Of a DNA stretch of 38,842 bases, positions 3,394 to 10,813 are shown in pieces. The stretch's first letter is position 1; every line of letters starts with the position of its first letter. The translations under genes and the position numbers were made by a program. The stretch spans positions 1 to 38,842 of the IMG/VR virus record IMGVR_UViG_3300043449_001103; one strand, 5' to 3'. The DNA is from a virus. The notes beneath the pieces are model-generated. The model saw nothing but the letters and a program-made list of their open reading frames with translations. It made no database searches and was not told the origin of the DNA.

Positions 3394-4086
3394 TCAGGCT
3401 GTTGCGTAGGAGGCAGTCGTTGCGGCGCATTCACGCTGGCGACGGCTGATCTGGTCTGAGAGCGGCACGAATTCCTCCGGGTGCGGCATGGATTCCGGCC
3501 AGTTGTTCCCGTCCCAGAGGTGGGGCAGCTTCTCGCGCGTCTCGTTCACGATCCGAATGGCCTCGGGCGTTGCGAGGAAGGCGCTCAACTCGTCACCATC
3601 GCCGCAGCCGTTCATCTCGTGGACAAACTGGCGCAGTTCGGTTTTCAGCTTGCTATGCGCGGGCTGCTTGGCTGCTTGCTGGGCAGGCGGAGCCTTGGTG
3701 GCTGCATTGCCGTCATCGTCCTCGGTGGCGAGGCCAAAGGCAGTCTGGAGCGCATACCTACGGCAGTACGTGAGGGCAGAGCCAAAGCCTTGTGCATCCC
3801 GCTTGCTGGCCGGGGTGAAGGTAATCCCTGCCGAAAGCTGCTCGCCGCTGTCGTGGATGTAGAACGTCTCCACGCAAGCGCCGTCCGCGTGTTCGATGGT
3901 CACTTGCCGGAACCAGAGGCCATGCTTGGCAATCGGCTCAATGGCTTCGATCATCGCCGCTAGATCGGCATACTTGGACTTGAACGCGGGGTTAGCCTTG
4001 TTCTTCTTGGCGCTTTCCAGTTCGGGCAGGGCCTTGGCGAGGGCAGCGATAATTCCAGGCTGCTTGATCTTGGTAACTTCGTTCAT
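3394..4086 (-). CDS. erf: ERF-family single-strand annealing protein
   Basis: 230 residues. The N-terminal two thirds match the ERF superfamily: IIAALAKALPELESAKKNKA, NPAFKSKYADLAAMIEAI, then HDSGEQLSAGITF and GSALTYCRRYALQTAFGLAT (the conserved Y-x-R-R-Y block), ending in EDDDGN. ERF proteins of P22 anneal single strands, needed for genome circularisation and repair. The C-terminus (about 155-230) is a variable linker and tail that may contact SSB. The ATG at 4086 overlaps the upstream 32-residue gene as ATGA; the longer N-terminus read upstream is low-complexity and unlikely. Confidence 0.93.
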   Translation of the reverse strand: MNEVTKIKQPGIIAALAKALPELESAKKNKANPAFKSKYADLAAMIEAIEPIAKHGLWFRQVTIEHADGACVETFYIHDSGEQLSAGITFTPASKRDAQGFGSALTYCRRYALQTAFGLATEDDDGNAATKAPPAQQAAKQPAHSKLKTELRQFVHEMNGCGDGDELSAFLATPEAIRIVNETREKLPHLWDGNNWPESMPHPEEFVPLSDQISRRQRECAATTASYATA

Positions 4087-4181
4087 GGTTGCACCATTGC
4101 TGCTAGAAGGGTCACTTCGATCCCGATCAGGATCATGAAGAATGCGAACTTGGCGAAGTCGCTGGTGAGGAAGGGTTTCAC
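4083..4181 (-). CDS. 32-aa membrane micro-protein
   Basis: A tiny gene (GTG start at 4181) placed exactly between two others: it begins in a GTGA overlap and ends in an ATGA overlap with the ERF start. The product has one hydrophobic helix (FAFFMILIGIEVTLLAAMV). The fit at both borders and the clean transmembrane segment make it more likely real than chance. Function unknown; it may also serve to couple translation into ERF. Confidence 0.5.
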   Translation of the reverse strand: MKPFLTSDFAKFAFFMILIGIEVTLLAAMVQP

Positions 4182-4459
4182 AGTTGCGCCCCCAGTCTCC
4201 GCAGCCAGTTCTGGCCGAGGCCGATGTCCAGGAAGGCGTCAAACATCGCTTTACGCGCGTCCCATGCGGCTTCTTCCGCTGCGTCGATCTCGCTCTCTGT
4301 CCCTCCGGTGTGGATGGTTAGCGTCACCTGATCGGCAGCGAGGATTGCGGCCTTGATGGTGGCGGCAAGCGGGTGATCAGACAGGTCGGGCAGGAGATTG
4401 GCATAAAGCCCCTTGGCGGCGTCCTGCTCGCAGCGGTGCAGTTGTGCGGCGCGGCTCAC
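4178..4459 (-). CDS. hypothetical protein, 93 aa
   Basis: Mostly helical and acidic in the middle (ESEIDAAEEAAWDARKAMFD), starting MSRAAQLHRCEQDAAKG. The GTG at 4459 was chosen because GGAG lies eight bases upstream and it overlaps the previous stop as GTGA; a second GTG at 4468 is possible. No family is recognised. It is the second gene of the leftward operon. Confidence 0.7.
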   Translation of the reverse strand: MSRAAQLHRCEQDAAKGLYANLLPDLSDHPLAATIKAAILAADQVTLTIHTGGTESEIDAAEEAAWDARKAMFDAFLDIGLGQNWLRRLGAQL

Positions 4460-4758
4460 AGTTCGCACTCCTTGCGCGAAAGCTGACGGCCTTCCGTGAT
4501 GCTGTAGCGATGTTCCGAGAACAGGATGTCCGCACAGCTATCCATTGCGCCAGCAAGGTCATCTTCCTCGAACACGGCGACGGCTGCTTCTGCGGCCTCG
4601 TACTGAGCCTTGAGGCACCAGCTATCGTTACGGCGGGCGCTTTCGATGTTGGCGTCCTTGAGGGCAACAAGCTTGGCAATGAGGGTGTCGATGGCCGCAT
4701 TTTCTGCCAGCGCGCGTTCAACGCGGCGGATGCGGGGGTCGATCTGGGTGGTATGCAT
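4456..4758 (-). CDS. hypothetical protein, 100 aa, first gene of the leftward operon
   Basis: Begins at an ATG with GGAGG five bases upstream. The product is acidic and helical, with heptad-like stretches (DTLIAKLVALKDANIESARR; EAAEAAVAVFEEDDLAGAM). It lies directly downstream of the operator-covered leftward promoter, so it should be the first early product made on derepression. The family is unknown. In lambdoid phages this position often holds an antiterminator or host-takeover protein, but nothing in the sequence shows that here. Confidence 0.75.
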   Translation of the reverse strand: MHTTQIDPRIRRVERALAENAAIDTLIAKLVALKDANIESARRNDSWCLKAQYEAAEAAVAVFEEDDLAGAMDSCADILFSEHRYSITEGRQLSRKECEL

Positions 4759-4799
4759 TTAAGCCTCCATTTCGCCGGGCGAACCGACTTGATGGAGGC

Positions 4800-4828
4800 A
4801 ATATGCAATGTGCATACTCGTTATGCAA
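4800..4828 (-). promoter_or_regulatory. putative leftward early promoter PL
   Basis: On the minus strand, TTGCAT (4828-4823) and CATATT (4805-4800) are separated by 17 bases, which would start transcription about 35 bases before the ATG at 4758. The match to sigma70 boxes is modest (3/6 and 4/6). The perfect operator 4802-4816 overlaps the -10 box, so repressor binding would block it. This explains control of the whole leftward operon. Confidence 0.45.
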
Positions 4829-4890
4829 GTGCAAAATGCATACCGACAAAAATAATTCTGGACCTTGTACCACGCTATGCAATTTGCAAA
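4802..4890. promoter_or_regulatory. left operator cluster (TATGCA-N3-TGCATA)
   Basis: Three copies of an inverted repeat: 4802-4816 is a perfect TATGCA-ATG-TGCATA; 4828-4842 is AGTGCA-AAA-TGCATA and abuts an extra TATGCA half-site at 4822; 4876-4890 is TATGCA-ATT-TGCAAA. The same 15-bp motif recurs on the other side of the repressor gene (5532-5572). Presumably these are binding sites of the repressor at 5131-5508 and perhaps the Cro-like protein. Confidence 0.75.
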
Positions 4891-4997
4891 TGGTGGCGAT
4901 TAACACCTATGGGTAGGCTCCTCCAAGACGGGCGCGCAGGAGCATTGACTTGTAGGATTTGCAGTGGAACATTAGAGGAACAACAGGGGAATTGCGC

Positions 4998-5240
4998 GTG
5001 TTTGACGAAGTGTATCTGATTGAGCCAGCCTGTGATGCGGGGTGCAGCCCCTGCGCTATGCGTTGCGCTATTCTGCCTACCAGACTGGACTGGTGGGTAG
5101 GGGAGGTGGACCGGCTTGAGCGTCAGTTAACTACTTGCCCGAGCGACGATTTGCCCGATCTAATCGAAAGCGCGCAAGCTGTTCGAACAAGTTTGGAGCG
5201 ACGATTCGCGGCAAGTCCGAGAGCCGCGTTTGCACGGTAA
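4998..5240 (+). CDS. possible small Cys-containing protein, 80 aa
   Basis: A rightward frame starting at a GTG with AGGGG eight bases upstream. The product has four closely spaced cysteines near the N-terminus (CDAGCSPCAMRC) and then a helical part (DDLPDLIESAQAVRTSLERR). It ends tail-to-tail inside the repressor gene, overlapping its last 110 bases. A weak promoter, TTGACT at 4945 with AACATT 17 bases on, lies upstream. It is the only candidate in the 370-bp gap between the repressor and PL, but it could be a chance frame. Confidence 0.35.
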   Translation: MFDEVYLIEPACDAGCSPCAMRCAILPTRLDWWVGEVDRLERQLTTCPSDDLPDLIESAQAVRTSLERRFAASPRAAFAR

Positions 5241-5508
5241 CAACTTCCTCCAGTGCATCATGGAGCATCATTTCCAGCTCCTGGATCGTCGGCTCTCCGG
5301 TGGAAGACTTTCCATAGAGAATCCACTCTGGCGTCGTTTTGAAAATCCGCGCGTAGCTTAGGGCTTTATCCTTCGGAATGCCTCGCAGCCCGCTTTCATG
5401 TTGCGCGTAGGTCGGGAACTTCATCCCCAGCGCATTAGCTGCGTCTCTGACCGTGGCATAACCGGCGGCAATGCGCGCGGCCTGCAATCTTTCTGCGGGT
5501 GTGTCCAT
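5131..5508 (-). CDS. XRE-family phage repressor without a cleavage domain
   Basis: About 125 residues. Residues 6-65 are an HTH_3/XRE domain (RLQAARIAAGYATVRDAANA, then TYAQHESGLRGIPKDKALSY) closing with the typical TTPEWILYG. The remaining 60 residues are helical; there is no S24 (LexA/CI-like) peptidase domain, so RecA-driven self-cleavage is not expected. Start choice: an ATG at 5517 overlaps the likely -10 box, while the ATG at 5508 lies seven bases after that box and has no Shine-Dalgarno, suggesting a leaderless message as for lambda cI. It is divergent from the Cro-like gene and surrounded by operators, fitting the role of lysogeny repressor. Confidence 0.85.
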   Translation of the reverse strand: MDTPAERLQAARIAAGYATVRDAANALGMKFPTYAQHESGLRGIPKDKALSYARIFKTTPEWILYGKSSTGEPTIQELEMMLHDALEEVVTVQTRLSDLPRIVAPNLFEQLARFRLDRANRRSGK

Positions 5509-5515
5509 GAAACGC

Positions 5516-5544
5516 ATTTAATGCGAAGTGGTATGCAATAGGCA
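5516..5544 (-). promoter_or_regulatory. putative repressor promoter (PRM-like)
   Basis: Minus-strand TGCCTA (5544-5539), 17 bases, then TTAAAT (5521-5516). The expected transcript start falls on or next to the ATG at 5508, which has no ribosome site. The operator at 5532-5546 overlaps the -35 box and spacer, so repressor could regulate its own synthesis. The boxes are weak, hence moderate confidence. Confidence 0.35.
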
Positions 5545-5572
5545 CTTTACAAGTGGGTATGCTTTATGCATA
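5532..5572. promoter_or_regulatory. right operators (TATGCA-type repeats)
   Basis: Two further copies of the immunity motif: 5532-5546 reads TATGCA-ATA-GGCACT (right half diverged) and 5558-5572 reads TATGCT-TTA-TGCATA (one mismatch to the perfect site at 4802). They fill the space between the divergent repressor and Cro-like genes and overlap both promoters. Confidence 0.7.
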
Positions 5573-5574
5573 GT
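5546..5574 (+). promoter_or_regulatory. putative rightward early promoter PR
   Basis: TTTACA (5546-5551), 17 bases, CATAGT (5569-5574). The predicted start is near 5581, only about two bases before the ATG at 5583, so the Cro-like message would be leaderless or nearly so. The operator 5558-5572 covers the spacer and -10 box. Confidence 0.5.
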
Positions 5575-5582
5575 GCCTCACT

Positions 5583-5786
5583 ATGGACATTACCCACTCT
5601 GATATTGTGCGCCACGCCGGTAGGCCGGACGATGTGGCGCAATCGCTGGGCGTTTCGGTTCACACCGTGCGTTCGTGGATCAGGCGTAACAGTTTGCCCG
5701 CAGAACATTGGGCAAAGTTCGAGCGCGAGGGCTGGGCGACAACTCGCCAGCTTGCTGCTGCTGCTGACGTCCACCGGGCCGCATGA
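5583..5786 (+). CDS. Cro-like small HTH regulator
   Basis: 67 residues with one HTH: DDVAQSLGVSVHTVRSWIRR followed by NSLPAEHW, the carph-isopro/Cro-like pattern seen in many phages. It is the first gene rightward from the immunity region and divergent from the repressor, so it should compete for the same operators and favour lytic growth. No Shine-Dalgarno is visible and the mapped promoter places the transcript start at the ATG. Confidence 0.8.
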   Translation: MDITHSDIVRHAGRPDDVAQSLGVSVHTVRSWIRRNSLPAEHWAKFEREGWATTRQLAAAADVHRAA

Positions 5787-5866
5787 TTTCCGCCGGGCAA
5801 GTCCAACACCGGCAGGGGGCCAAAGCGGGCGGGGTAACTCCCGCCCGTGGAGGCGCGCCGCGTTGA
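5783..5866 (+). CDS. possible 27-aa peptide gene
   Basis: An ATG overlapping the Cro-like stop as ATGA opens a 27-codon frame rich in Gly, Ala and Arg. The overlap fits the operon style but the peptide has no features. It is the only candidate in the 155 bases between the Cro-like gene and the next clear gene, so chance is a serious alternative. Confidence 0.2.
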   Translation: MISAGQVQHRQGAKAGGVTPARGGAPR

Positions 5867-5941
5867 GCCTGCTCCGCGCATTTCTTTCAATCTGCAAACC
5901 AAGCGAGCTTGTGCGCTCGCGCTATCGGGACCGGGGGGTCT

Positions 5942-6301
5942 ATGGCATACACAACAGCGGACCAGATGTTCGAGGCTCTCGCTGCTCAAGTGAGCGACGA
6001 GGACTTTGTGATGAGGGCGGTAAAGACTGCGTTTCCTGAGTGGAAGCGCGACACACGCACCGCCCATCTGGCAGCAGAACGCGCGGAACGGATGCGCCGG
6101 ATTACCGAAGCCCGATGGCAGCTTCTCCTTGAGGAACAGCGCGAGAAGGCGATTGATCCCGACACGCTGAACAGCAGCCATCAATATGCGAAGATGCTGG
6201 AGGAGGGCAGTAAGCGATTGCTCCAGGCGCTTCACCTCTATCACCCGCGCATCATGGATTGCCTTGCAGCCCAGAAGGTGCCTGTGGTGGTCTATCCATG
6301 A
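5942..6301 (+). CDS. hypothetical helical protein, 119 aa
   Basis: Starts at an ATG behind GGGGGG, giving a charged, mostly helical product (HLAAERAERMRRITEARWQL; LLLEEQREKAIDPDTL). A TTG at 5909 would add 11 residues. No family is recognised. Its position after the Cro-like gene and before the resolvase suggests an early regulatory or replication-related role, but nothing in it proves that. Confidence 0.75.
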   Translation: MAYTTADQMFEALAAQVSDEDFVMRAVKTAFPEWKRDTRTAHLAAERAERMRRITEARWQLLLEEQREKAIDPDTLNSSHQYAKMLEEGSKRLLQALHLYHPRIMDCLAAQKVPVVVYP

Positions 6302-6489
6302 TCGGGGAGCCTAACGCGCATGAACTGGATGCGCTGCGCTTCATCTCCAAGATGGAATCCGACCTCGCCAAGCTGCGCGCCGAGCCTGAGTTGCTGACGG
6401 TCGAGCGGTGCCGGTTGAACGCTATCCGCTGGGAGAACCATGCGGAATGGCTGGTGGAGGCTGAGAAGCCCGCGAGGTGGGAGGCATGA
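6298..6489 (+). CDS. hypothetical protein, 63 aa
   Basis: The ATG overlaps the previous stop as ATGA. The product is helical and acidic (HELDALRFISKMESDLAKLR), possibly coiled-coil. It overlaps the RusA start in the same way. No function is inferred. Confidence 0.65.
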   Translation: MIGEPNAHELDALRFISKMESDLAKLRAEPELLTVERCRLNAIRWENHAEWLVEAEKPARWEA

Positions 6490-6818
6490 AGATCATCCTG
6501 CCATTTCCGTCATCGCGCCTTTCTGGGCACAATACGGGGCACTACCACGCCAAGGCGGGCGTTGTTGCCCAGCACCGCGAATGGGCGCGTAATGAGGCTT
6601 TGAAGGCCAATCTGACCGCCCCGGCAAAAGGTGACATTACCGTAAGCGTTCGGTTTATTCCGCCCGACAACCGTGGTGACCGAATCAACTTCCCCAATCG
6701 GATGAAGCCGTACTTCGATGGCATCGCTGACGCCTTGAAGGTCAATGATAAGCGGTTCATTCCGTTCTATATGTTTGCCGAACCTGCCAAGCCGGGTTGC
6801 GTAGAGGTGTGGCTGTGA
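6486..6818 (+). CDS. rusA: RusA-family Holliday junction resolvase
   Basis: 110 residues. The RusA core is clear: the N-terminal strand KIILPFP, then PPDNRGDRINFPNRMKPYFD with the metal-binding Asp residues and the conserved Lys, followed by GIADALKVND. RusA enzymes are dimeric endonucleases that cut four-way junctions. Here it would resolve recombination intermediates made by the ERF/NinB/SSB set encoded leftward, before packaging. Start by ATGA overlap. Confidence 0.92.
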   Translation: MKIILPFPSSRLSGHNTGHYHAKAGVVAQHREWARNEALKANLTAPAKGDITVSVRFIPPDNRGDRINFPNRMKPYFDGIADALKVNDKRFIPFYMFAEPAKPGCVEVWL

Positions 6819-7189
6819 AGGGCCGCAAACCAAGCCCAGCCATTGCGGCGCGCAACAAGGCGATTGCGGAAGCCTATGCAGCCGGGGAATTGGCTCGCGT
6901 TCTTGGCGAGCAGTACGGCCTTAGCCCTGACACGATCAGGACAATTGCCCAGCGCATGGGCGTTCCCGGTGATCCATTGCGCGGCTATCGCCAGCAGCTT
7001 CGCACCTACGAGCGCAATCCGGAACTGGCCGAGCGCCACCGTAGGAACGCACAGGAAGCCCTAGTCCATTTCCGCCCGCAACCTCGCGTGTGGCCCACCT
7101 GCCCACCTGAGAAGCGCCAGGATTATGAGACGCTGAAGGCATATTACGGCGCGCGTGAAGCCCGCCGGATGCTGGAAGGTGCGGCATGA
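6815..7189 (+). CDS. putative HTH protein, 124 aa
   Basis: GTG start with AGAGG seven bases upstream, overlapping the RusA stop as GTGA. Residues about 10-50 look like an HTH (AYAAGELARVLGEQYGLS, then DTIRTIAQRMGVPG). The C-terminal half is basic and rich in Arg and Tyr. It may be a DNA-binding regulator of the early operon (NinH-like position), but the family is not certain. Confidence 0.7.
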   Translation: MKGRKPSPAIAARNKAIAEAYAAGELARVLGEQYGLSPDTIRTIAQRMGVPGDPLRGYRQQLRTYERNPELAERHRRNAQEALVHFRPQPRVWPTCPPEKRQDYETLKAYYGAREARRMLEGAA

Positions 7190-7863: not shown

Positions 7864-8095
7864 GGCCGCCCCAGTCACCATGAGCGGCCCGCCTTACGGC
7901 ACGCAGGCATGGTGCGACTGGCGCAACACCATGATGGTTCGAACTGACATCGAATGGGTGTTGGATGGTAACGGCGGGGCCTTCATCCGGGACAAACCGG
8001 AATGGAGCGCGAAGAACATGCGCGAGGTCGCGCAGCAGCACGAAAGCGAACGCCAAAAGTGGGCGCATCGGCTCCGCAATCCTATCAAAATCTAA
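7841..8095 (+). CDS. hypothetical protein, 84 aa
   Basis: ATG with GGAGG six bases upstream, overlapping the end of the initiator gene by 23 bases. The product is soluble and charged, with QAWCDWRNTMMVRTDIEW in the middle and a basic C-terminus (ERQKWAHRLRNPIKI). It is in the position of a helicase loader after an O-like gene, but there is no ATPase motif and it is too short; the role is unknown. Confidence 0.7.
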   Translation: MTGNRLVKAAPVTMSGPPYGTQAWCDWRNTMMVRTDIEWVLDGNGGAFIRDKPEWSAKNMREVAQQHESERQKWAHRLRNPIKI

Positions 8096-8143: not shown

Positions 8144-8851
8144 ATGTTACCAGATCAAACTTGCGAACAACGGGCTGGCGACGGCCTCTCGGATGCAATT
8201 GCTTCCGTGGTGGCAATCCTCACGGCCCGCTATGAAACGGCTCTTGTCGAGGGCCTGAACGAGGCGCGACAGGCGCTCCATGAAATTTCGCCGTTCCGCA
8301 ATGAGCCGGTCGATTTTGTGCGGTGGGTTCCTAATTCAGCCGTTTACGCGAACGACTATAACCCGAACAGCGTTGCACCGCCGGAAATGGAGTTGCTGCG
8401 CCTGTCCATTGACGCGGATGGCTACACACAGCCGATTGTTTCCATGCCGGACCCAGATGGCCGGTTCGAGGTTATTGATGGCTTTCACCGGCACCGCGTC
8501 GGAAAAGAGTTTCCCGACATTCAAGCCCGCGTGCAGGGTTATTTGCCGCTGGTGGAAATTCGGGAAACACAGGCGGACAAGTCGGACCGCATGGCATCCA
8601 CTATCCGCCACAATCGTGCACGAGGCAAACACCGCGTCGAGGCGATGAGTGAAATCGTGATCGAACTGAAAAAGCGGAATTGGTCGGACGAGAAAATTGC
8701 CAAGAACCTCGGCATGGAACCGGATGAAGTCCTGCGGCTGTGCCAGATCAGCGGTCTTGCTGAATTGTTCAGCGATAGCGACTTTTCCTCATCATGGGAC
8801 ATTGACGATTTTGATGAAGTGATCGCCATTGAACTTGATGGGGAAGCGTGA
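8144..8851 (+). CDS. ibrB: ParB-like (IbrB-type) protein
   Basis: 235 residues. A ParB/Srx-type domain spans about 55-165, with the hallmark GFHRHR near 113-118 and RHNRARGKH near 155-163. An HTH-like helical part follows (WSDEKIAKNLGMEPDEVLRL, about 178-200). This matches the IbrB branch of ParB-like proteins, which is normally encoded beside a PAPS-reductase-like IbrA, as here with one gene between. Possible functions are DNA binding, nuclease or nucleotide hydrolysis; a partition role is unlikely. A 48-base gap precedes it, so it may have its own promoter, though I see no strong one. Confidence 0.8.
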   Translation: MLPDQTCEQRAGDGLSDAIASVVAILTARYETALVEGLNEARQALHEISPFRNEPVDFVRWVPNSAVYANDYNPNSVAPPEMELLRLSIDADGYTQPIVSMPDPDGRFEVIDGFHRHRVGKEFPDIQARVQGYLPLVEIRETQADKSDRMASTIRHNRARGKHRVEAMSEIVIELKKRNWSDEKIAKNLGMEPDEVLRLCQISGLAELFSDSDFSSSWDIDDFDEVIAIELDGEA

Positions 8852-9276
8852 TGGTCGAGCGCATCTATCACACCTGGGACAAGTGGGAGTGCTATCCCGC
8901 AGGCTTCTACGACCCTAAGCCGCCCAAAGGCATGACAATCGAAGAGTGCAAAAGCGCTTATTGCGAGTTCCTGCTGGATTACACGCGGTTCGGCAACGCG
9001 GCCCTGCGGCTCATCAAGGAATGGCCTAATAGCTGCGAGCATTACCTAACCAATGAGCGGATGAACCGCATTGCTTGGATAGGCCAAGCGGCGATGTGCC
9101 TGGAAACAGGCGTCTCGAAGTTCTTTTGTGGCGGATATTTCCAGATGTCGCAAGAACATCGGGACTATGCTGACTTCGTGGCTTTGTGCGCGCTGAATAT
9201 GTGGCTCGCAATCAACGGACACGCTCGCCTCTCGCCGGATGAGGCCAAGAGCAAGACACAGGCGGACCTTTACTGA
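8851..9276 (+). CDS. unknown protein inside the ParB/PAPS-reductase cassette
   Basis: 141 residues; the ATG overlaps the ParB-like stop as TGATG with GGGGAAG upstream, and its own stop overlaps the next start as TGATG. It is Trp-, Tyr- and Cys-rich: HTWDKWECYPAGFY at the start, LIKEWPNSCEHYLTNERMNR in the middle, then WIGQAAMCLETGVSKFFCGG and a hydrophobic helix FVALCALNMWLAING. No family is recognised. Strict coupling to both neighbours suggests it is a third component of the same system. The conserved-looking cysteines could bind metal or accept sulfur, but this is inference. Confidence 0.8.
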   Translation: MVERIYHTWDKWECYPAGFYDPKPPKGMTIEECKSAYCEFLLDYTRFGNAALRLIKEWPNSCEHYLTNERMNRIAWIGQAAMCLETGVSKFFCGGYFQMSQEHRDYADFVALCALNMWLAINGHARLSPDEAKSKTQADLY

Positions 9277-10493
9277 TGGCCAAGAAAATCTACCGCGAGC
9301 AAAACGTGCTCGACGCATCGCGCGAACGCATTTCCTATGCCTTCGACAATTTCGAGAAGCTCTATGTCAGCTTCTCAGGCGGCAAGGATAGCAGCGTGAT
9401 GCTTCACCTTGTCATGGATGAAGCAATCAAGCGTAACCGCACGGTTGGCGTCCTGATTATCGACCTGGAAGCGCAATACCGGGCGACCGATGAGCATTTG
9501 CGTGAAATGGTCGATTTGTACCGCGACCATATAGACCTGCATTGGGTCTGCCTGCCCATGTCGCTGCGCAACGCCGTAACCAACTATGAACCGCGTTGGA
9601 TGTGCTGGGATGAAACCAAGCGCGATATTTGGGTAAGAGAGCCGGTTGCCGATGGGATCACTGACCCGGCGTTTTATCCGTTCTTCGAGCCTGGAATGGA
9701 GTTCGAAGAGTTCGTCGTGCTGTTTGGGGAGTGGTACGGCGAAGGGAAGCCTTGCGGGGGCTTTGTCGGCATCCGCGCCGACGAAAGCCTAAACCGTTTT
9801 CGCACGATTGCCGTTTTCGATAAGCGCACTCACGGCGGGCACCGCTGGACAACGCAGGTGGTCGCGGAGACGTACAACCTCTACCCCATCTATGATTGGC
9901 GGACTGAGGACATCTGGCGCTATCACGCCAAGTTCCCTGACAAGCCGCACAATCACGTTTACGACCTGATGCAGCAAGCGGGTGTGCCGCTAAGCCAGCA
10001 ACGCCTTTGCCAACCCTATGGCGACGACCAGCGCCGGGGCTTGTGGCTATACCACATTCTAGAACCGCAGACCTGGTTCAAACTGATTGCCCGCGTGAAC
10101 GGGGCTAACTCTGGCGCGCTGTATGTCGAAGAAACTGGCAACATCATGGGTTATAACAAGATTAGCCGCCCCGAAGGGCATACATGGAAGTCGTTCTGTA
10201 ATCTGTTGCTTATGTCGCTGCCGAAGCCGACGCGGGATCATTACATCACGCGTTTTCGTGGATGGCTTAAAGGTTGGCGAGGGCGCGGTTACACTGAAAT
10301 TCCCGATGAAGCCCCGAAGATCTTGGAGGACCAGCAGTGGGCACCGTCTTACCGGCGCTTGTGTAAGGTTCTGCTGCGGAATGATTGGTGGTGCAAGGGA
10401 CTTGGCCTGACGCAACCCAAGTCTGAGGCATATGGCCGCTATCTCGACATGAAGAAGAAAAAGGCCGTGGAAGCCGCGGAGGCGGAGGCATGA
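9276..10493 (+). CDS. ibrA: PAPS-reductase-like PP-loop protein (IbrA/DUF3440 type)
   Basis: 405 residues. The PP-loop SFSGGKDSS at about 33-40 marks the adenosine-nucleotide alpha-hydrolase fold of PAPS reductases, DndC and thiolation enzymes. Further hallmarks are CGGFVGIRADESLNRF near 160-175, YDWRTEDIWRYHAKF, and a long C-terminal extension (WKSFCNLLLMSLPKP onwards) typical of DUF3440/IbrA. The enzyme would activate a substrate with ATP or handle PAPS; true sulfate assimilation is unlikely for a phage. In E. coli, IbrA with IbrB affects expression of immunoglobulin-binding proteins. DndC is a distant relative acting in DNA phosphorothioation. Both are known analogies, not proof. Confidence 0.85.
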   Translation: MAKKIYREQNVLDASRERISYAFDNFEKLYVSFSGGKDSSVMLHLVMDEAIKRNRTVGVLIIDLEAQYRATDEHLREMVDLYRDHIDLHWVCLPMSLRNAVTNYEPRWMCWDETKRDIWVREPVADGITDPAFYPFFEPGMEFEEFVVLFGEWYGEGKPCGGFVGIRADESLNRFRTIAVFDKRTHGGHRWTTQVVAETYNLYPIYDWRTEDIWRYHAKFPDKPHNHVYDLMQQAGVPLSQQRLCQPYGDDQRRGLWLYHILEPQTWFKLIARVNGANSGALYVEETGNIMGYNKISRPEGHTWKSFCNLLLMSLPKPTRDHYITRFRGWLKGWRGRGYTEIPDEAPKILEDQQWAPSYRRLCKVLLRNDWWCKGLGLTQPKSEAYGRYLDMKKKKAVEAAEAEA

Positions 10494-10813
10494 GGCGCGT
10501 TATTATCGAAAGCCCGTACGCGGGCGATGTGGCTGGCAATCTCGTTTACGCGCGCAAGTGTATGGCGGACAGTCTTGCGCGTGGTGAATGGCCGATTGCC
10601 AGTCATCTGCTCTACACGCAGAGCGGCATCCTTGATGACAATATACCTGAGGAAAGGGCGCGGGGAATCGCGGCGGGACAGGCTTGGGGGGAGATTGCTG
10701 ACGCGATAATCTTCTACATTGATTTAGGGTGGTCGCCAGGGATGGAGGCTGCACTGCAATTCTATGTAGAGAGCGGTAAGCCAATCGAAGAACGGCGGAT
10801 CAGGGCAGCTTGA
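10490..10813 (+). CDS. nucleoside 2-deoxyribosyltransferase-like (DUF7768-type) protein
   Basis: 107 residues with RRVIIESPYAGDVAGNLVYA, then RGEWPIASHLLYTQSGIL and AWGEIADAIIFYIDLGWSPG followed by MEAAL. This matches a small phage family related in fold to nucleoside deoxyribosyltransferases and SLOG proteins, with a helical G-M-E-A-A signature near the end. Possible roles are base exchange on nucleotides or nucleotide-derivative binding. It overlaps the PP-loop gene as ATGA, so it may belong to the same functional cassette. Confidence 0.7.
   Translation: MRRVIIESPYAGDVAGNLVYARKCMADSLARGEWPIASHLLYTQSGILDDNIPEERARGIAAGQAWGEIADAIIFYIDLGWSPGMEAALQFYVESGKPIEERRIRAA

Follow-up and report, generated by a model that had tools for sequence, protein, structure and literature searches.

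The IbrA/IbrB pair, known from enterobacterial islands, plasmids and Gram-positive phages, combines a PP-loop enzyme with a ParB-like protein, and for IbrAB, DUF3440, YbdN/YbdM and COG3969 alike no biochemical function or mechanism was found in the open-access literature searched. Here we show that bases 8144–10493 of a viral DNA (IMG/VR record IMGVR_UViG_3300043449_001103; the window is the whole record, 38,842 bases) encode a three-component phage version of IbrB/IbrA, in which a ParB-fold protein (B) and a PP-loop/DUF3440 enzyme (P) are joined by a middle protein of 141 residues (M). Two features expected of IbrA/IbrB are present, namely DUF3440 on a PP-loop protein and a neighbouring ParB/sulfiredoxin (Srx) gene; the two-gene order of P followed by B is not. 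Four open reading frames (ORFs) on the + strand succeed one another with overlaps of 1, 1 and 4 bases:

8144–8851, + strand: B, ParB/Srx-fold protein (IbrB-like), 235 residues; PHROG 2159, ParB_N, PDB profile matches, alignment
8851–9276, + strand: M, uncatalogued all-alpha third component, 141 residues; 54 homologous viral loci, AlphaFold2 model
9276–10493, + strand: P, PP-loop ATP pyrophosphatase-type enzyme with DUF3440 (IbrA-like), 405 residues; PF11922, PF01507, Foldseek
10490–10813, + strand: DUF7768 nucleoside-deoxyribosyltransferase-like protein, 107 residues; PF24963; not conserved in the cassette

The ORF ahead of the cassette stops at 8095, leaving a gap of 48 bases before 8144. An earlier reading of the DNA (the original prediction) had described four genes coupled by overlaps of 1–4 bases after a 48-base break, and the coordinates agree. 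All of the motifs that it quoted (GFHRHR, RHNRARGKH and SGGKDS) are present, and its ParB-like, DUF3440/PP-loop and deoxyribosyltransferase-like (DUF7768) assignments are each matched by a profile, the middle protein matching none. M may start at ATG 8851, giving 141 residues, or at GTG 8848, giving 142.

The evidence for a three-component unit comes from its conservation. The surveys were drawn from IMG/VR contigs, many of them fragmentary, each survey comprising at most 80 of a larger number of matches, and the pattern-based scans favour conserved members. When viral contigs were searched with M alone, 54 loci were found and B and P adjoin M in 54/54, an association beyond chance. In surveys seeded with P, M lay within 2.5 kb of P in 75/78 new loci from the window's own clade, in 76/80 loci of a Gaia-like clade whose P is ~35% identical to that of the window, and in 48/80 loci of a mixed clade around the P of a Streptococcus phage; some of the loci lacking M sit at the edge of a contig. 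With P proteins of 90% identity or more removed, the corresponding counts were 63/66, 32/34 and 26/51. M is present in 160 of 199 non-redundant loci overall; since this set contains loci that were themselves retrieved with M, the surveys seeded with P give the fairer picture. Pairwise distances of M and P are correlated (Mantel r 0.76; 0/999 permutations as high). On the P tree, the presence of M requires at least seven changes, which argues for repeated gain or loss of M and not for a single event. Taken together, the results support B, M and P as a conserved system of several components, of IbrB/IbrA type, to which M is integral in phages. The multi-component system that had been predicted thus holds for these three proteins, and M recurs in DUF3440 neighbourhoods of phages.

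The position of M varies. It had been placed strictly between B and P, which is true of the window but not of the family, where M is also found before P-B, after B or fused to B. The non-redundant arrangements are a B-M fusion followed by P (56 loci, the fusion being a single uninterrupted open frame), B-M-P (38), P-B without M (35), P-B-M-c (31), M-c-P-B (16), M-P-B (15) and a few others. Here, c denotes a gene of 84–89 residues whose product corresponds to the C-terminal module of DUF3440 on its own (one member matches PF11922 with E 2.9e-9); the c proteins that were read lack a cysteine equivalent to Cys373 of the window's P. Every c gene (114/114; 49/49 non-redundant) lies directly after M, starting −7 to 56 nt from where the M match ends. 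An ectoine-synthase-type cupin (PF06339, E 1.6e-40) is located between P and B in 81 loci of the Gaia-like clade, 67 of which have it fused to B. Examples of the two additions are:

L176:3726–3977, L204:1456–1722, L058:7613–7813 and others: stand-alone DUF3440-C genes, directly after M
L058:6329–6721, L240:5275–6186, L059:6302–7201: ectoine-synthase-type cupin beside or fused to the ParB-fold protein, Gaia-like clade

In most phage versions M is thus a conserved partner, as a gene of its own, as a fusion with B, or paired with an extra DUF3440-C copy. From the fusions of M with B and the adjacency of M and c we infer that M works where the ParB-fold protein and the C-terminal module of DUF3440 meet. 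The cupin is a possible clue to the substrate; no mechanism linking ectoine synthase and ParB was found in the open-access literature. One locus (L053) has two ORFs tagged as PP-loop/DUF3440 near 3698–7000 that flank ParB and M on either side, and the second may be a stand-alone DUF3440-C module.

Plasmids carry DUF3440 relatives in 594 records, and M was found in none. On inspection, four plasmid loci had P followed by B without M, as did the classical IbrAB loci examined. Among 399 genomes from one bacterial phylum, DUF3440 occurs in seven besides the seed, with a ParB gene nearby in 7/7 and M in 0/7. An earlier scan of bacterial genome contigs for M used strict patterns and may miss divergent prophage copies. 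A concealed M was sought in IbrAB loci without M; neither hhalign on two candidate neighbours nor a superfamily hidden Markov model run over 498 neighbouring ORFs from 52 such loci gave anything convincing. Given its absence from the plasmid, classical and genome loci examined, M looks like a phage-specific component, although divergent forms could have escaped detection. Its conservation beside ibrA/ibrB therefore extends to phages and not to the plasmid, chromosomal and classical pairs examined.

This distribution bears on a reading of the cassette as a toxin-antitoxin, superinfection-exclusion or host-takeover device, in which B would hold P, or M together with P, back from damaging or modifying the nucleic acid of the host. 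A chromosomal ParB/DUF3440 pair was listed as putative antitoxin/toxin in a survey of Listeria, by guilt of association only (PMC7020466), and the cassette is compact and differs in composition, with a GC content of 0.55–0.56 in the four genes against 0.59–0.60 around them. The lower GC would fit import as a block, for which it is weak evidence. However, M is missing from plasmids despite the many that carry DUF3440, B and M are often fused, unlike a separable antitoxin, and no PADLOC defence model is matched except for weak DndC/BrxP similarity. We regard such a device as very unlikely.

M of the window has no match in Pfam, PHROGs, NCBIfam, PADLOC or PDB sequences, and divergent members have none in Pfam or PHROGs. 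Although uncatalogued, M is a large phage protein family. An AlphaFold2 model based on 43 sequences is all-alpha and confident (predicted local distance difference test, pLDDT, 93.4; predicted template modelling score 0.88). Foldseek revealed no fold relative in the PDB (best E 2.5) and one viral protein model in BFVD (A0A649V0K8, E 1.7e-4). Profile search and structure prediction of M alone have accordingly upheld its description as unrecognised. In a diverse alignment of 13 rows, E13, W58, L66, N72, A75, G78 and A111 are invariant, and the Glu and Asn among them may mark a ligand-binding or catalytic site in this small helical protein. The possibility that M is concealed within the ParB PHROG (phrog_2159, 365 columns) was rejected: in five ParB-M fusions, the match ends at or near the ParB part and leaves M uncovered. 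In the public record of Microcystis phage Mwe-JY13 (L056:6576–7001), M is named 'ParB/sulfiredoxin' despite having no ParB domain, an annotation probably transferred from ParB-M fusion proteins.

B matches the ParB-like PHROG 2159 with E 2.3e-67, and its match to Pfam ParB_N (E 2.8e-4, 21.3 bits) lies below the curated cut-off of 26.3. It features a DGFHRHR box II, an IRHNRARGKH box and a C-terminal region resembling a helix-turn-helix (HTH). Its profile matches in the PDB are ParB (4umk) and the serine kinase SbnI (5uje), and in profile alignments box II (DGFHR) is closer to DGVHR of SbnI than to GERR of partition ParB. The ParB fold is able to bind CTP, ATP or GTP (PMC12704722). P matches DUF3440 (PF11922) with E 1.9e-34 and 119.4 bits against a cut-off of 25, and PAPS_reduct (PF01507) with E 1.9e-12. 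Its PP-loop signature is complete, the motif SGGKDS and many active-site residues being invariant or nearly so. By Foldseek, the model of P, which is moderate only (pLDDT 78.8), has its nearest matches in CysH, FAD synthase and the tRNA thiolase TtuA. Cys373 in its C-terminal module is kept in 98% of relatives.

Some of these features would suit a role in small-molecule metabolism, with B as a SerK/SbnI-like kinase and P performing sulfur or amine transfer on a free metabolite or nucleotide as part of an auxiliary metabolic module. The SbnI-like box II, the fusion of the cupin to B in one clade and the PHROGs label of P as phosphoadenosine phosphosulfate (PAPS) reductase all speak for it. Against this, B retains the HTH-like region and the basic HNRARGxH box, no biosynthetic operon lies beside the cassette, and the CysH equivalog cut-offs are widely missed (27 bits against 254.2 for TIGR02057). 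The ECGLH motif (E[CS]G[IL]H or CGLH) is absent from every P of the first 144 loci; failing on both score and motif, P was rejected as a CysH reductase. A metabolic module is therefore quite improbable. Phage 'PAPS reductase/cysH' was the most common sulfur-related viral auxiliary metabolic gene in one survey (PMC8319345), and such genes are often reported from viromes as auxiliary sulfate-reduction genes. This reading looks wrong for the P clade of the window, because the CysH motif is absent and a ParB-fold protein and a new subunit accompany P.

The fourth gene matches DUF7768 (PF24963, E 2.9e-28, 98.5 bits against a cut-off of 26) and PHROG 355, nucleoside 2-deoxyribosyltransferase (E 2.8e-21). 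It had been counted as part of the system, and in this the original prediction failed: relatives of the gene occur beside M in 0/54 loci, it is a singleton in a clustering of neighbours within four genes of the cassettes, and its family is scattered elsewhere over 369 phage records, which rules it out as a component. It is a passenger, though it overlaps P by 4 bases.

Enzymes of the PP-loop family act by adenylating an oxygen, which a nucleophile then replaces. In the cassette, P would adenylate a substrate oxygen for exchange with sulfur or an amine, and B may be a nucleoside triphosphate-dependent subunit that engages DNA. Through its tethering to B and to the C-terminal module of DUF3440, M would couple B to P, and it may contribute specificity or catalytic residues (Glu13, Asn72). 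B and M would in this way bring a PP-loop adenylating enzyme to phage nucleic acid for modification; the likeliest target would be the phage's own DNA after replication, and the likeliest benefit evasion of host restriction. Given the ParB-like partners in the Dnd and Dpd systems, the ParB/transglycosylase gene pair of Fusobacterium phage phiFN37 described below and the likenesses of P and B, we infer that B-M-P forms a complex for modifying nucleic acid, with phage DNA as its most likely target, and regard this as having a little less than an even chance. The position of the cassettes among replication/recombination genes counts in its favour. Sulfur or adenylate transfer to nucleic acid by the cassette is plausible. 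A broader proposal is more doubtful: phages would possess a widespread and so far unrecognised kind of nucleic-acid modification machine built around ParB-M-P, its PP-loop enzyme steered by a ParB-fold nucleoside triphosphatase and the new helical subunit, and the DUF3440-C or cupin additions of particular clades would install or remodel different groups.

Several observations weigh against a modification complex. Beside the cassettes there was no sign of a cysteine desulfurase or of any other constant partner for modification, and a fixed fourth modification gene was rejected, the neighbours varying and being mostly of replication or recombination type. An Fe-S cluster held by conserved cysteines of P was likewise rejected; there is no clear pattern, because only Cys373 is near-universal. 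B also resembles small-molecule kinases, and the mechanistic part of the proposal is built on analogy. Finally, records annotate classical IbrA/IbrB as 'co-activators of prophage gene expression'. This label, the HTH-like C-terminal region of B and the location of Streptococcus and Lactobacillus pairs near antirepressor/Cro genes are consistent with transcription or lysis-lysogeny control, with B, M and P regulating phage or host genes. A regulator would, however, have no need of a conserved ATP-pyrophosphatase site, yet that site is preserved in P, and the M-containing cassettes are found in replication modules with no fixed regulatory neighbour. Regulation is thus unlikely.

In the window, the cassette lies between replication and packaging genes as had been predicted, with SSB, ERF, RusA and an HTH_36/DnaD-like protein (replication/recombination) upstream and terminase and portal downstream. 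The cytosine-methyltransferase-like protein ascribed to this phage is encoded at 868–1467 (−) and matches PHROG 757, 'DNA methyltransferase' (E 2.2e-70), with no Pfam match. At 1452–2027 (−), an HNH/HTH protein begins with ~25 residues (RVLVACEYSATVRDAFR) like the start of the adjacent methyltransferase-like protein. To judge from the sequences, this looks like an HNH insertion carrying or duplicating the start of the methyltransferase-like gene.

A conserved third subunit, together with natural fusions that hint at docking, offers a defined complex for expression and assay. The function of the very common viral IbrAB-like gene set becomes testable through M, and the cupin and DUF3440-C variants are natural clues to the chemistry.

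Among known systems, DndC/DndB and SspD/BrxP of Dnd, Ssp and BREX-4 phosphorothioation share with the cassette a PP-loop enzyme, and DndB, which is of the ParB family, acts with DndC (PMC12839542, PMC12704722). A short stretch of P matches DndC of PADLOC (E 1.8e-7), but P scores 25.4 bits against the TIGR03183 equivalog cut-off of 290.4 and was on this ground rejected as a DndC-type enzyme. The recurring neighbour clusters, read by eye and with no profile search, showed no resemblance to DndD/DndE or SspB/SspC, and M and DUF3440 set the phage cassette apart from the Dnd/Ssp systems. In Dpd, as proposed here, a ParB-like protein serves a nucleic-acid-modifying enzyme (DpdB, a ParB-like ATPase, with DpdA, a tRNA-guanine transglycosylase, TGT; PMC12839542), whereas the enzyme of the cassette is a PP-loop adenylating protein and not a transglycosylase. 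No TGT-like enzyme was noticed among conserved cassette neighbours, for which no dedicated search was made. In phage phiFN37 (L144), a second ParB-like gene (8754–9245) stands immediately ahead of a gene resembling queuine tRNA-ribosyltransferase, in the region that also contains the P-B pair. CysH/PAPS reductase has the same PP-loop fold as P, supplies its nearest solved structures and gives it its automatic names; apart from the score and motif reported above, the difference is that the conserved partners of P are non-metabolic.

The closest relative is IbrA/IbrB, with homologous P and B encoded by adjacent, co-directional genes. Unlike the classical pair, in which P precedes B without M, the window has the order B-M-P and a third gene, and the phage family adds B-M fusions, extra DUF3440-C genes and cupin-ParB fusions. 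The B-M-P cassette of phages is a three-component variant of IbrAB, with M as its new subunit.

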